Shown: piece by piece, positions 28,069-34,524 of the stretch
How the letters are laid out: every line of letters begins with the position of its first letter
How positions within the stretch are numbered: the stretch's first letter is position 1
DNA from: Gammaproteobacteria bacterium
GTDB lineage: Bacteria > Pseudomonadota > Gammaproteobacteria > Poriferisulfidales > Poriferisulfidaceae
Assembly: GCA_028819565.1 (NCBI GenBank)
Contig: JAPPLD010000024.1
Coordinates: 1-50,798 of the forward strand
DNA: 50,798 bases
Direction of reading: 5' to 3'
Made by a program: the position numbers and the translations under genes
Notes under the pieces: model-generated
The model's input: only the letters and a program-made list of their open reading frames with translations
Told to the model about the DNA's origin: nothing
The model's database searches: none

Positions 28069-30090
28069 TCAACTCGCCGCCTTGAGTTCGGCCCCGAAAG
28101 TCCTCTCGTGAATGGCGCGGGCCTCGTCCCGCAACCGCGCCGCCTCTTCGAACTCCAGTTCCCGCGCATGGTGGTACATCTGCTGCTCCAGTTCCCGGAT
28201 CTTCCGCAGCGCCTCCTCTGGACTCAATAGCTCGACCGGTTCGGCCGATGCCAACCGAACCCGTTTTGTATGTTTCCCTGGCGAACGCCCGGCAGCGCCT
28301 TCCATGATATCGGCGACCCGCTTTTCAATGCCCTTCGGCGTAATGCCGTGTTCACGGTTGAATTCCTGTTGCTTGGCACGGCGGCGATCGGTTTCGTCGA
28401 TGGCACGGCGCATCGAGTCGGTTATCTCGTCGGCGTACAGCAGCGTGCGCCCCTTGACATGCCGTGCCGCCCGCCCGATGGTCTGGATCAGCGAACGTTC
28501 CGAGCGCAGGAATCCTTCCTTGTCCGCATCCAGAATCGCCACCAGCGAAACTTCCGGGATGTCCAGCCCTTCGCGCAAGAGGTTGATTCCGACCAGCACA
28601 TCGAATTCGCCCAGCCTCAGGTCGCGGATGATCTCAACCCGCTCCACGGTGTCGATATCGGAATGCAGGTAGCGAACCCGGACGTCGTGTTCGCGCAGGT
28701 ATTCGGTCAGGTCCTCGGCCATGCGCTTGGTCAGCGTGGTCACCAATACCCGGTCGCCGGCTTCGGCGGTCTTGCGGATCTCGGATAGCAAGTCATCCAC
28801 TTGGCTGGAGACGGGGCGAACTTCGACGTTGGGATCGACCAGCCCGGTCGGGCGCACCACCTGCTCGACGACCTGCCCCGACAGCTTGATCTCGTACGGT
28901 CCGGGCGTGGCCGACACATAGACGGTTTGCGGCGCCAGTGCCTCGAATTCCTCGAACTTGAGGGGCCGGTTGTCCAGTGCGGACGGCAACCGGAACCCAT
29001 AATCGACCAGATTCTTCTTACGCGAGTGATCGCCCCGGTACATGCCGCCGAACTGCGGGATCGTGGCGTGGCTCTCGTCGACGAACAGCAGAGCATTGTC
29101 CGGCAGGTAGTCCAGCAGGCAGGGCGGCGGTTCGCCAGCGGCTCGCCCGGACAGGTAGCGCGAGTAATTTTCAATGCCGGCGCAGTAGCCGAGCTCTTCG
29201 ATCATCTCAAGATCGTAACGAGTACGCTGCTCAAGGCGCTGCGCCTCCACCAACCGTTCCTCCGACACCAGCAGGGCAAGGTGCTCTTCGAGTTCCTCGC
29301 GAATCTGTTCCACCGCGCGCTCCAGCACCACCTTCGGGGTCACGTAATGGGTCTTCGGATAGATGGTCAAACGGGGCACGTCGCGCCGGACTTCCCCGGT
29401 CAATGGGTCGAACAGGCGCAGACGCTCGACTTCGTCGTCGAACAATTCGATGCGAACCGCCTCGCGGTCCGAATCCGCCGGATGCACGTCGATGACGTCG
29501 CCACGCACCCGGAACGTGCCGCGGCGCAGATCGACTTCATTGCGCTTGTACTGCAACTCCGCAAGACGCCGCAGGATCCCGCGCTGCCCGGTGCGGTCGC
29601 CACGGTTCAGGTGCAACACCATCCGGTGGTAGGACTTGGGGTCGCCGAGCCCGTAGATGGAGGAAACCGTACCGACAATGATCGTGTCGGGCCGCTCGAA
29701 CAGCGCCTTGGTCGCGGACAGGCGCATCTGTTCGATGTGGTCGTTGATCGACGCGTCCTTCTCGATATAGGTGTCCGAGGCCGGTACATATGCCTCCGGC
29801 TGGTAGTAGTCGTAGTACGACACGAAGTACTCGACCGCGTTGTCCGGGAAGAATTCCTTCATCTCCCCGTACAGTTGCGCGGCGAGGGTTTTGTTGTGCA
29901 CCAGCACGATGGTCGGCCGCTGCACCTTGTGGACGACGCAGGCCATGGTGTAGGTCTTGCCGGAACCGGTCACGCCGAGCAGGCTCTGGTGGCTGAGGCC
30001 GTCCTCCAGACCCGCCACCAACGACGCGATGGCCTCCGGCTGGTCGCCCGCCGGCGCGAAGGAGGCTTTAAGGTCGAATGGGCGCTTCAC
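28069..30090 (-). CDS. uvrB: UvrABC excision nuclease subunit B
   Basis: A 673-residue UvrB, the damage-verifying helicase-like subunit of nucleotide excision repair. The GDQPEAI opening, Walker A GVTGSGKT, the beta-hairpin region [24 protein letters not shown]-type Walker B, helicase motifs V/VI ([36 protein letters not shown]) and the C-terminal UVR coiled coil are complete. The best start is GTG 30090, giving [13 protein letters not shown] as in the family. No native Shine-Dalgarno is left, because the tnpB element ends here. The tnpB stop overlaps this GTG as GTGA. Confidence 0.97.
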
Positions 30091-31487
30091 AGTTTGTGAA
30101 ATTCGGGCCTGTCCCGATAATTCCACTGCATCGTTGACGGATCATTGACGGTCTCCACTAGGCACTCCATGAAGAATGCCCCCGCTTCGTTGTCCTCTCC
30201 CCGTCCCGTCACCGGAGCGCCTCCGGCCAGGAGCCTGTTCAATCCCAGGTCCAGGATGTTTCTCGCGGCATTGAGGTCCGCGTTGTCCGTGTGCCCGCAG
30301 GCCAGGCACTTGAAGCGCACCTGTTCCTTTCGGTTGTCCTCGTCCACGTGCCCGCACTCCGCGCAAGTGCGACTGGTGTTCCGCGCCGGCACTCGGATCA
30401 GATCCCAAGCCTTGTACTGAAGAAAACGATCCACCATCCCCATACAAGAGAACTGGGCCATCTTCCGGTTCAGCGCTGCTTTCGCACGCACGCCCCGCCC
30501 CGGCTTTCCCTTCGTGCCCCGCGCCGAGCGACGCATCGCCTGCACGTCCAGTTCTTCCAACACGATGTGCCCGAACAGCCGCGCCAGGTCCGCCGAGGAC
30601 TGGTGGCTGAAGTTCTTCCGAATCTCCGCCGCCTTGCGCTTCGCCTTCGCCGCACGTTGCTGCAGTCGCTGCCGGCGGTTCGAGGCTACCTTGACCGGTT
30701 TGCCCGACTTCGTGTACACCGGTTCCCCGTTGGCGCCCTTCAGTTCGATCTGTTCCCGGCAACTCGCCCGCCACTGGTAGTGCCGCGCCCGCGCCTCGTA
30801 CTTCTCGACCCGCTCATACGGGATCTCAATGAGCTTCCGTCCCCCGATCCAGTCTGCCGCGAGGTTCTCCGAGTTGCGGTCGACCCCGCAAACCCCGCCG
30901 TGCCAGTGCCAGTTCGGGTCCTCCACCTCCCACAGCACCGAGACATACCATTTGTCCAGTTCCCGGTACACCACCGCGACTTTCGCCTTACCGCCGTCCC
31001 AGGGGTCGGTCCCCCGCGTGCGTGACGCTGCCTTGCGGTTCATCCGAACCCAACCGATCTTTGGCACCCAAAGTCGCTTGTTCTGCACTTTCACATTCTC
31101 CGGGATCGTGAACGACTCCCGGCTGACGCCCTTGACCTTGAAGCGGGGAAACCCGGCCTCCTTCCCCCGCTTGCCCTCTTGGATACGCCGGAAGTAATGC
31201 GCGAAAGCGGTTCCTAAGGTGAATGCGCCTGAACTGCGCACGATAGAACAAGACAACTCGCGTAGCCACTCGTGGCCTTGCCGCTCTTTCAGCTTGACAA
31301 ACCGCCTTCCAAATTCGAACGGGGAAGTCCCCGGCCTGTCTCTCTCGCCTGCCTCGAAGTGCGCGTATTCCCGCTTCTGCTCGGCCAGCAATTCATTGTA
31401 GACGAACCGGCCGGCCCCGCACAGTTGGATGAACTGCCGCTCCTGCATCTGGTTCGGATACAGGCGGTAGCGGGAGGCCCGATGCAT
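30087..31487 (-). CDS. tnpB: TnpB RNA-guided endonuclease (IS200/IS605-type)
   Basis: A 466-residue TnpB of the IS1341/IS605 type. An N-terminal YRLYPNQMQ...[12 protein letters not shown] segment is followed by an intact RuvC triad: D203 (CGVDRN), E311 (IVLEEL) and D404 (NADLNAARN). The zinc ribbon has C375/C378 and C394/C397. All catalytic residues are kept, so it should be an active omega-RNA-guided nuclease, not a dead regulator. No tnpA lies nearby. The unusual C-terminal tail (about 25 residues after [10 protein letters not shown]) reads through the right end of the element and stops on the uvrB start codon. Confidence 0.9.
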
Positions 31488-31606: not shown

Positions 31607-32788
31607 ATGGAACGCGCCCTTTCGAAACGGGTCGGACGTTGCGAGCCTTCCGCAACGCTGGCCGTCTCCGCGACTGCGCGCCGCCTGCGCGCGGCGGGGC
31701 AGGAAATCATTGATTGGAGTGCCGGAGAACCAGATTTCGACACCCCGGAAAACATCTGCGACGCGGCGATCCAGGCCATCCGCGACGGCCAGACCCGCTA
31801 CACCTCGGTCGGCGGGACGCCAGCCCTGCGCGCCGCCATTGCGCACAAGTTCCACCGCGACAACAAGCTGCACTTCGAGACCGACCAGATCCTGGTGAGC
31901 ACCGGCGCAAAGCAGGCCCTGTACAACTGCCTGCAGGCAGTGGTCGATCCCGGTGACGAAGTCATCATTCCCGCCCCCTACTGGGCCTCTTACCCCGACA
32001 TGGTGCGGCTCGCAGGCGGCGAGCCGGTGTTCCTGCCGACCACCCTGAAGCAGAATTTCCGCCCCACCGCCGAACAACTGGACCAGGCGATCAGCCCGCG
32101 CACGAAACTGCTGATCCTCAACAGCCCGTCCAACCCCTGCGGTGCCATGCTGCACCGAGAAGATCTCGAGGGTTTTGCCCGAGTGCTGCGCGCACATCCT
32201 CACGTCCGAGTCGCGTCCGACGACATCTACGAACTGATCCGGTTCGACGGCGTGCCGTTCTGCAACCTGGTTCAGGTCGCGCCCGACCTGGGCGACCGCG
32301 TTCTTCTCATCAACGGCGTCTCCAAGGCCTATGCCATGACCGGCTGGCGGATCGGCTATGCGGCCGGACCCAAGGACATCATCGACGCCATGCTGACCGT
32401 CCAGTCGCAGAGCACCTCCAACCCCAGCTCGATCGCCCAAGCCGCCGCCTGTGCCGCTTTGCTGGAAGACCAGTCCTCGGTGCCCGACATGGTCGCCGCC
32501 TTCGAACAGCGCCGCAACTACATCGTGGCGGCACTTAACGAACTGCCTGGAATCACTTGCCTGAAGCCCGATGGCGCGTTCTACTGCCTGCCGGACGTCG
32601 GCGAAGCCATGCGCCGGTTGGAATGCCCTTCCGATATCGAGTTCGCCACCCTGCTGCTCGACCAGTTGCGCCTTGCCGTCGTGCCGGGGATCCCGTTCGG
32701 CTCGCCCGAGCACATCCGGGTCTCGTTCGCCACCGACATGCCGACCCTTGAAGAAGGCATCTCGCGCCTGCGCGATCTTCTTGACTGA
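31607..32788 (+). CDS. Class I (Ib) aspartate/aromatic aminotransferase
   Basis: A 393-residue PLP-dependent aminotransferase of subgroup Ib, most like bacterial aspartate aminotransferases. The WSAGEPDFDTPENI opening, STGAKQALYNCLQA, LILNSPSNPCGA and the PLP lysine K240 in NGVSKAYAMTGWRIGY are clear, as is the C-terminal HIRVSF arginine that binds the substrate carboxylate. Aspartate/oxaloacetate is the likely pair, but the substrate cannot be fixed from sequence. It is followed without a gap by the 2OG dioxygenase gene. Confidence 0.92.
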   Translation: MERALSKRVGRCEPSATLAVSATARRLRAAGQEIIDWSAGEPDFDTPENICDAAIQAIRDGQTRYTSVGGTPALRAAIAHKFHRDNKLHFETDQILVSTGAKQALYNCLQAVVDPGDEVIIPAPYWASYPDMVRLAGGEPVFLPTTLKQNFRPTAEQLDQAISPRTKLLILNSPSNPCGAMLHREDLEGFARVLRAHPHVRVASDDIYELIRFDGVPFCNLVQVAPDLGDRVLLINGVSKAYAMTGWRIGYAAGPKDIIDAMLTVQSQSTSNPSSIAQAAACAALLEDQSSVPDMVAAFEQRRNYIVAALNELPGITCLKPDGAFYCLPDVGEAMRRLECPSDIEFATLLLDQLRLAVVPGIPFGSPEHIRVSFATDMPTLEEGISRLRDLLD

Positions 32789-33659
32789 AATCCCCCTTTC
32801 CTCGCCTGCCGCGTGGTGGGATCTGTCACGCACGGATGCCTATCAGGCATGGCGGGAACAGGTGCTTGGCGAAAGCGAAGTGGATTTCGCGCCGGTTGAA
32901 ATCCGAAATCCCGCCAAGTTGGATGCGCCGGAAATCGGCGCCTTGACCTCGCGTCTGCATGCCGGCGGAACCGTCTGCTACGTCACGGACCAAACCCCCG
33001 AACCCCGCGACCTGCTGGCCTTCGGTGAGCAGCTGGGGCTCGAACACCTCGACCATCACCAGTGCGCCGAACCGGATGGGGTGGCACGCTTGACGGCACG
33101 GGAAGACACGGCCGGGCGATTCATCCCGTACACCCGCCACCGGCTGCGATGGCACACCGACGGGTACTACCAGCCGGAAGCGCAGAAAATCCGCAGTTTC
33201 ATTCTGCACTGCATCCAACCGGCGCTCGAAGGCGGTGTCAACCGGCTGCTTGACCCGCGCCTGCTGTACATCGCTTTGCGTGACGAAGACCCGGACCTGA
33301 TCCGGGCGCTGGCTCATCCCGAAGCCTTCACGGTCCCCGCCCACGCCGAAGACGGCCAAGAGCGCCGGGCCGAATTCAGCGGGCCGGTCTTCTCGGTCGA
33401 CGGCGAACACCTGTACATGCGCTATACCGAACGTGCCATTCATATCCGCTGGCACCCCGAAACCGAGGCCGCGCGAATTCGGATCCAGGAACTGCTGGAA
33501 ACCCTGCCGAAGGCGAAACGCCCCCTGCGTCTGGAGGCGGGATGCGGGTTGATCGCGCATAATGTATTGCACTGCCGGAGTGCCTACACCGACTCTGCCG
33601 ATTACCCCCGCCTGTTGTACCGGACCCGCTACACGGATCGCGCCCACCGCCCATGCTGA
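32781..33659 (+). CDS. TauD/TfdA-family Fe(II)/2-oxoglutarate dioxygenase
   Basis: A 292-residue protein with the TauD fold. The iron motif HxD is H125/D127 in RWHTDGYY. The distal region HNVLHCRSAY (H260 or H264) is followed by the 2OG-binding arginine in LLYRTRY. The TTG at 32781 overlaps the aminotransferase stop and is the only in-frame start that gives a family-length protein; a long upstream extension would lie inside the aminotransferase gene in another frame. The substrate is unknown. The last 7 nt overlap the next small gene. Confidence 0.85.
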   Translation: MTEIPLSSPAAWWDLSRTDAYQAWREQVLGESEVDFAPVEIRNPAKLDAPEIGALTSRLHAGGTVCYVTDQTPEPRDLLAFGEQLGLEHLDHHQCAEPDGVARLTAREDTAGRFIPYTRHRLRWHTDGYYQPEAQKIRSFILHCIQPALEGGVNRLLDPRLLYIALRDEDPDLIRALAHPEAFTVPAHAEDGQERRAEFSGPVFSVDGEHLYMRYTERAIHIRWHPETEAARIRIQELLETLPKAKRPLRLEAGCGLIAHNVLHCRSAYTDSADYPRLLYRTRYTDRAHRPC

Positions 33660-33844
33660 CCCTGAGCGAACTCCTGATCGCCCACCATGAGCTCGACTCT
33701 TTCGAGGGCCTCAAAGACCTGATTGCGGCACGCATCGATGCGGGAGAACGGTTCCTCAGCCTGGACGTCCGGCCTCCGTTTTCCGACACCCCGGAAGATT
33801 GGGAGGAGCAACTGGAAAGCTTCTTCACGGCTCGCCGTCCTTGA
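33653..33844 (+). CDS. Small conserved-looking protein of unknown function (63 aa)
   Basis: A 63-residue acidic, helical protein with no signal peptide or membrane segment. The sequence LSELLIAHHELDSFEGLKDL is followed by PPFSDTPEDWEEQLESFF. It overlaps the dioxygenase gene by 7 nt and ends 2 nt before the Cas6-like gene, so it belongs to the same unit. Its tight fit and clean ATG support a real gene. I do not recognise it. Confidence 0.65.
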   Translation: MLTLSELLIAHHELDSFEGLKDLIAARIDAGERFLSLDVRPPFSDTPEDWEEQLESFFTARRP

Positions 33845-33846
33845 CC

Positions 33847-34524
33847 GTGCACTGGCAAGAATCGGACACGCCTCCTCCCGCCGTCGCGCCGGACGTGGTG
33901 GATGTCCGTTACCGAATCCGCTGCAAGGCCTTGCCGGTCGACCATGCCCGCGACCTGCGCTCGGCGCTTCTCGCGGCCTGGCCCTGGCTTACGGACGAAC
34001 CGCTCGCCGGTGTCCACACGATTCACGGGGCCGAATCCGGAAACGGCTGGATTCGACCGGAAGACCCGACGACCTACCTGCCGCTGTCGAAGCGCACCCG
34101 GCTGGCTCTGAGGCTGCCCTACCACCGGCTTGAGGAAGCGCGAGAGCTGTCTGGAGTCACCTTGCAGATCGGCCCGGATTCGATGGTCATCGAAGACAAC
34201 CGCCTGCATCCGCTGCAGGCACAAGGCACGGTTTTTGCCCGTTACGTCGCGATCGAGGACGAGGACGAGGAAGAATTCCTGGGTCTGTGCGCCGAGCAAC
34301 TTAAGGGAATCGGCATTGAAGCCCCGCGCATGATGGCTGGCCGCACCCATCTCGTCGCCGGGGGCGAGAGAGCCCTGCACTGCCGCAGCCTGATGCTGGA
34401 CGGCCTTGATCCCGAGCAATCCGTGAACCTCCAACGCCAAGGTCTCGGCCCCGAGCGGTTATTGGGCTGCGGGCTATTCCTGCCCCACAAAAGCATCGCG
34501 CCCGTCGCAACACCGTCGAGATGA
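33847..34524 (+). CDS. Cas6/Cmx6-like CRISPR RNA endonuclease-family protein, no array nearby
   Basis: A 225-residue protein resembling the Cas6 subtype MYXAN (Cmx6) family. It has DVVDVRYRIRCKALPVDHARDL near the N-terminus (with the conserved His), TRLALRLP, TLQIG, and GTVFARYVAI. It ends with the RAMP-type glycine-rich loop QGLGPERLLGCGLFLPHKS. Cas6 proteins cut CRISPR precursor RNA. No CRISPR repeats or other cas genes are in the window. Instead it is coupled to a 63-aa gene and a 2OG dioxygenase, just upstream of rpsF. The GTG at 33847 gives the family-like start (M)HWQES; TTG 33841 is an alternative. The family call is from recalled motifs and should be confirmed by profile search. Confidence 0.72.
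   Translation: MHWQESDTPPPAVAPDVVDVRYRIRCKALPVDHARDLRSALLAAWPWLTDEPLAGVHTIHGAESGNGWIRPEDPTTYLPLSKRTRLALRLPYHRLEEARELSGVTLQIGPDSMVIEDNRLHPLQAQGTVFARYVAIEDEDEEEFLGLCAEQLKGIGIEAPRMMAGRTHLVAGGERALHCRSLMLDGLDPEQSVNLQRQGLGPERLLGCGLFLPHKSIAPVATPSR

Follow-up and report, generated by a model that had tools for sequence, protein, structure and literature searches.

The stretch of DNA analysed here, referred to as the window, comprises 50,798 nucleotides (positions 1 to 50,798 of contig JAPPLD010000024.1, assembly GCA_028819565.1) of a gammaproteobacterium of the Poriferisulfidaceae, and carries a compact cassette of genes for a TauD-family 2-oxoglutarate (2OG)-Fe(II) oxygenase, a 63-amino-acid (63-aa) protein and a protein of the Cas6 family. 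The Cas6-like gene was found to belong to a real and widespread branch of that family which is independent of clustered regularly interspaced short palindromic repeats (CRISPR) and tied to sulfur oxidation by reverse dissimilatory sulfite reductase (rDsr). The features of the cassette and its surroundings are given below.

31607-32788, plus strand: class I/II aminotransferase, aspartate aminotransferase-like (PF00155, E = 1e-78)
32781-33659, plus strand: TauD-family 2OG-Fe(II) oxygenase, DsrQ-like, TTG start (PF02668, E = 4.9e-20)
33153-33161, plus strand: HxD motif (H125-T-D127) of the oxygenase, invariant in 100/100 homologues
33570-33572, plus strand: distal His264 of the oxygenase, invariant in 100/100 homologues
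33653-33844, plus strand: 63-aa helical protein ('p63'), conserved partner of dsrQ (conserved neighbour; AlphaFold2 (AF2) model)
33847-34524, plus strand: Cas6-family protein (repeat-associated mysterious protein (RAMP), double RNA recognition motif (RRM)), CRISPR-independent and dsr-linked, GTG start (PF09559, TIGR02807, AF2 model, co-occurrence with dsrB)
33943-33945, plus strand: His33 codon; the residue aligns with the N-terminal, candidate catalytic histidine of Cas6 (homologue alignment)
34036-34050, plus strand: S-G-N-G-W insertion, residues 64-68 of the Cas6-like protein, hallmark of the main dsr-linked branch
34441-34479, plus strand: C-terminal glycine-rich loop, residues 199-211, GLGPERLLGCGLF, common to CRISPR-linked Cas6
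34618: start of rpsF, the next gene after the Cas6-like gene

The original prediction had described a Cas6/Cmx6-like gene tightly packed with a dioxygenase gene and a 63-aa gene upstream of rpsF, and the open reading frame (ORF) positions confirmed this arrangement: the dioxygenase and 63-aa ORFs overlap by 7 nucleotides (nt), and a gap of 2 nt separates the 63-aa ORF from the Cas6-like gene. The GTG start of the latter at 33847 agrees with the conserved N-terminus M-x-W of its homologues (W3 in 116/116); a TTG at 33841 is an alternative start codon.

The assignment to Cas6/Cmx6 was upheld by profile and structure comparisons. The protein matched PF09559 with 181.8 bits (E = 1.8e-53, cut-off 26.7) over profile positions 1-191 of 191, scored just over the cut-off of TIGR02807 (107.8 bits against 98.85), and matched the sequence of the Cas6 of a type I-B CRISPR-associated transposon (CAST; PDB 8fcj_B) with E = 1.4e-9; the second Cas6 model, PF10040, gave no match anywhere in the genome. 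An AF2 model was built from an alignment of 45 homologues, with a predicted local distance difference test (pLDDT) score of 89.0 and a predicted template modelling (pTM) score of 0.85, and its top matches in Foldseek were Cas6 proteins. Over its full length the model aligned with 8fcj_B at Z 24.4 (root-mean-square deviation 2.0 over 192 aa), and 3pkm_X was matched at Z 15.0. The model thus predicts, with high confidence, the pair of ferredoxin-like (RRM) domains known from solved Cas6 structures, in agreement with the RAMP fold that had been proposed.

Conserved residues were counted in 117 dsr-linked proteins, a set in which some members come from one genome or from genomes that are nearly identical. 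His33 and K215 were each kept in 116/117 and G67, W68, R83, R89, Q196, G207 and G209 in all 117, and the glycine-rich loop further retained G199 (115/117) and G201 (114/117), as the insertion did N66 (113/117). As regards the cleavage of RNA hairpins without metal that marks the Cas6 superfamily, the observation is that the His33 position is retained. The equivalent of His33 is invariant in the three aligned CRISPR-linked cyanobacterial copies and the glycine-rich loop is common to both groups, whereas Asn occupies the position of His33 in the CAST Cas6 (8fcj). The S-G-N-G-W insertion was found in none of the CRISPR-linked relatives and is altered or shorter in three distant short-form members; K215 is likewise not common to the CRISPR relatives. 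A conserved motif, candidate for the protein surface and specific to the dsr-linked branch, consists of W3, H57, S-G-N-G-W, R70, R83 and K215. Across the Porisulfidus lineage the computed ratio of nonsynonymous to synonymous substitutions (dN/dS) was about 0.10-0.11, which indicates purifying selection.

The closest known system is the Cas6/Cmx6 of type I-MYXAN (I-B), with which the protein has the double-RRM fold in common and whole-length homology, at 25-29% identity to five plasmid copies. These CRISPR-linked relatives sit in full I-MYXAN cas operons of cyanobacteria, whereas the dsr-linked gene has neither cas genes nor arrays nearby and sits with dsr, and in the tree a long branch with 100/100 support separates the two groups. 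The 'equivalog' model TIGR02807, meant for type I-MYXAN Cas6/Cmx6, matched all 45 aligned dsr-linked members; it therefore does not separate the CRISPR group from the dsr-linked one, and automatic and public annotation is likely to name the latter CRISPR proteins.

As had been noted in the original prediction, no array-like direct repeats were found in the window, and its contig holds no Cas1. Elsewhere the genome holds three CRISPR-Cas loci with arrays, of types I-C (Cas5c), II (Cas9) and I-G (Csb2), and nothing indicates that any of them uses this Cas6. In type I-C the precursor of CRISPR RNA (crRNA) is cut by Cas5c, in type II by RNase III with trans-activating crRNA, and in type I-G the Cas6 part is carried by Csb2, of the Cas5-Cas6 fusion family. 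Each of the three types thus has another processing route, and none needs the Cas6-like gene. The main sample comprised 274 genomes of the class, evenly sampled, and a second one 299 genomes taken phylum-wide. In the main sample 43 genomes held both PF09559 and Cas1 and 48 held PF09559 without Cas1, with 62 holding Cas1 only and 121 neither (Fisher p = 0.035), and across the class no CRISPR locus was seen to contain a PF09559 gene. The Cas6-like gene is not a CRISPR gene, and the proposal that it stands alone and has no part in crRNA maturation is well supported, since PF09559 tracks dsrB and not Cas1.

PF09559 was found in 91 of the 274 genomes, in single copy except for one split gene (G264), and its presence agreed with that of dsrB in 262 genomes: 87 held both, 4 PF09559 only, 8 dsrB only and 175 neither (Fisher p = 2e-56, the Fisher tests here taking genomes as independent, shared ancestry included). 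Counted by family, 55 held both, 2 PF09559 only and 4 dsrB only. In at least six of the eight genomes with dsrB only (G070, G110, G123, G211, G238 and G270), a contig ends where the cassette would be expected; that of G123 first runs through the dioxygenase and 63-aa genes into the beginning of the following gene. Among the PF09559-only genomes, the contig end of G127 falls inside the dioxygenase gene. In the phylum sample, PF09559 occurred in 4/299 genomes, all dsrB-positive, which were the four dsrB-positive members of the class. With both samples pooled, dsrB was present in 90 of the 94 genomes with a PF09559 match, so that the CRISPR label can mislead CRISPR censuses: in the Gammaproteobacteria sampled, a family whose models bear a CRISPR name is a sulfur-metabolism gene, and the label obscures its role as a conserved accessory in a major biogeochemical pathway. 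A scan with one conserved peptide gave 564 relatives, of which the best 80 were labelled Gammaproteobacteria or related proteobacterial bins; the nearest named organism among these 80 was Candidatus Porisulfidus, described in its record as a sponge-associated sulfur oxidizer. The window genome itself holds dsrB, on a contig other than that of the cassette.

Gene neighbourhoods were surveyed at 117 loci, upstream counts being taken from the 85 with enough sequence and those of the downstream DsrC-like gene from 101. In nearly all relatives the dsr locus is the home of the Cas6-like gene, and the genes usually run in the order dsrA (divergent), dioxygenase, 63-aa gene, in some loci a 235-aa gene, Cas6-like gene, a DsrC-like gene lacking the C-terminal cysteines and often a 68-aa gene. 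Upstream of the Cas6-like gene, dsrA was present in 74/85 loci, the dioxygenase in 72/85 and the 63-aa gene, within 7.5 kb, in 76/85; the cysteine-less DsrC-like gene lay downstream in 87/101. This last gene, counted when within E <= 1e-25 of the window genome's own copy, co-occurred with PF09559 in the 274 genomes at 81/10/5/178 (both, PF09559 only, DsrC-like only, neither). It belongs with the cysteine-less members of the DsrC/TusE family (PF04358), presumably those named 'RspA' (Venceslau et al. 2014), a name that a literature search did not confirm. The three short-form members also adjoin dsrA, in the order Cas6-like gene, DsrC-like gene, dioxygenase. The gene of about 235 aa, which has no Pfam match, is inserted between the 63-aa and Cas6-like genes in 36/85 loci (L058, L046 and others). 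In L038 and its relatives, further recurrent neighbours lie downstream, some 1.1-3 kb from the Cas6-like gene: genes for 68-aa and 106-aa proteins that match no Pfam family, and another two 2OG oxygenase-like genes, of which one matches PF13640 and the other is PKHD-type by eye.

In the lineage of the window the trio of dioxygenase, 63-aa and Cas6-like genes has moved away from dsr into the interval between the aminotransferase gene and rpsF, and dsrAB remain together with the cysteine-less DsrC-like gene on contig C7 of the same genome, apart from the Cas6-like gene. The coupling of the aminotransferase to the dioxygenase proposed in the original prediction exists as an overlap of 8 nt between the 3' end of the former and the start of the latter, but it is confined to this lineage: the aminotransferase precedes the cassette in L037 and was also found in L077-L079, and elsewhere dsrA occupies its place. 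That the cassette is coupled to the aminotransferase gene and rpsF results from a rearrangement local to the Ca. Porisulfidus lineage (L037, L076-L079), and the aminotransferase is a chance neighbour through relocation.

The call of a TauD-family dioxygenase held, with the ligand positions invariant in 100 homologues: beside the iron triad of H125, D127 and H264, these include R277 and R281, at the 2OG-binding arginine positions. A tauD-like gene beside dsr clusters was named dsrQ by Lenk et al. (2012), according to PMC7596348, where its role was guessed to be the release of sulfite from sulfonates and where, in the text consulted, a Cas6-like partner is not mentioned. Going by that text, the window dioxygenase is DsrQ-like and thus a known dsr neighbour; the copies of its relatives keep the same position, divergent from dsrA, whereas that of the window lineage has been relocated. 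The 63-aa protein, which matched no Pfam or NCBIfam model, has the invariant residues M1, S5, P41, P47, W50, E55 and F58 and is predicted by AF2 as a small protein of three helices (pLDDT 86.6). At four loci (L169-L172), dsrQ and its 63-aa partner gene stand divergent to dsrA and no Cas6-like gene adjoins them; these loci are called alphaproteobacterial by inference, from 'same phylum' genomes that show such an arrangement. Another small protein, of about 71-82 aa where it is clearest, is encoded downstream of the pair at these loci, followed in three of the four by a gene for a CysG-like siroheme synthase. The Cas6-like gene occurs without a nearby dsrQ in several genomes (L052, L070, L071 and L073).

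Given the kept His33 and glycine-rich loop and the low dN/dS, the most economical reading is that RNA binding, and possibly cleavage, has been retained, and the combination of Cas6 domestication for rDsr sulfur oxidation with retained RNA binding is the account that we favour, if with some reserve. A Cas6-family protein would accordingly have left CRISPR and become fixed as an accessory of the gammaproteobacterial rDsr pathway, kept by vertical descent. For the mechanism beyond the Cas6 fold and its kept active-site features, we infer that the protein would still bind RNA, probably in the form of a hairpin, which it may also cleave through His33. More speculatively, it might determine how a transcript of the sulfur-oxidation regulon is processed or translated, or how stable it is, and might act together with the neighbouring cysteine-less DsrC-like protein; DsrQ and the 63-aa protein would serve the same pathway in a separate job. 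That dsr transcripts are the RNA target is a tentative suggestion, if the leading one. An exaptation of Cas6 across the Gammaproteobacteria as an RNA-cleaving regulator of rDsr, in which the Cas6 histidine would act on cellular RNA with the DsrC-like protein as partner, is conceivable though rather doubtful. With a Cas6 that has become fixed outside CRISPR across 57 families, and that shows strong purifying selection in the lineage examined, the case is a clear one of domestication, and it raises the testable question of which RNA, if any, is bound. No description of Cas6 and dsr as a gene pair was found in the open literature searched.

Several observations weigh against this account. The target search found no RNA target: the gap between the Cas6-like gene and the cysteine-less DsrC-like gene showed no conserved fold (mean z -0.27), and a palindrome recovered between dsrA and dsrQ was rejected as a Cas6 hairpin. 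This palindrome, TAYCCC-N4-GGGRTA, was present in 41/90 loci against 0.7 expected from mononucleotide shuffles, the count being made with a looser pattern chosen after recurrent k-mers had been seen; its third pair was T-A in 23 cases, C-A in 6, T-G in 5 and C-G in 0, without compensatory change, which makes a DNA operator likelier than a Cas6 hairpin. Furthermore, the phylum sample held 47 genomes with dsrB from outside the class and none of them matched PF09559, so that the pathway runs there without a Cas6-like protein, and two dsr-positive genomes of the class, G207 and G079, may be true absences of the gene. The Fisher tests count related genomes as if they were independent. A Cas6 fold and one histidine in common are no proof of RNA binding.

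The main rival to retained RNA binding is that the RAMP fold has been reused, with no further work on RNA, as a protein scaffold of the cytoplasmic sulfur-trafficking or DsrAB machinery, where it would bind DsrC, DsrEFH or the DsrC-like protein; this is improbable to a lesser degree than the other alternatives. It accords with the fact that the most regular neighbour is a protein of the DsrC family and with the dsr branch having its own conserved surface-candidate motif, absent from CRISPR relatives; however, His33 and the glycine-rich loop, common to RNA-cutting Cas6, are kept nearly always and would be needless for a pure scaffold. Less probable still is a role in the modification of tRNA or another stable RNA with a sulfur relay, in which the Cas6 fold would bind RNA and a TusE/DsrC-like partner would link it to sulfur carriers. 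TusE is a tRNA thiolation protein, and the family to which it belongs (PF04358) includes the DsrC-like protein whose gene adjoins the Cas6-like gene, but this partner lacks the C-terminal cysteine for sulfur transfer (the genome's own copy ends in PESRRKGGY), and the Cas6-like gene is confined to dsr genomes whereas tRNA thiolation is general.

The suggestion in the original prediction that the dioxygenase oxidises RNA bound by the Cas6-like protein is very unlikely. The tight packing in the window and the frequency of the dioxygenase as a neighbour speak for it, but the oxygenase matches the small-molecule hydroxylases TmpA, TMLD and GBBH, Cas6-like genes without a nearby dioxygenase exist, and at the four loci taken as alphaproteobacterial the dioxygenase and 63-aa genes lie beside dsrA without a Cas6-like gene; the function of the pair is therefore separable, which makes a joint oxidation of RNA unlikely. 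Processing of crRNA in trans for the genome's three arrays, to which the score above the TIGR02807 cut-off might point, was rejected as scarcely credible on the types of the three systems, with their other processing routes, and on the distribution of Cas1, which 48 of the 91 PF09559 genomes lack, no PF09559 gene having been seen in a CRISPR locus of the class. As a whole, the interpretation in the original prediction is partly supported; the link to sulfur oxidation and the three distant CRISPR-Cas loci lay beyond what the window alone could show.

The palindrome, present in about 40 dsrA-dsrQ gaps, is a candidate operator of the dsr genes. It was rare elsewhere in the genomes checked and found in none of the short-form and alphaproteobacterial loci searched; a second element, CAYCCY...RGGRTG, often lies about 35 bp from it. 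In the window genome itself it lies upstream of dsrA on contig C7, at L158:9074-9089, with dsrA at L158:9191. A further gene in the window, at 30087-31487 on the minus strand between uvrB and the aminotransferase gene, encodes a TnpB-family RNA-guided nuclease (NF040570, 192.6 bits).

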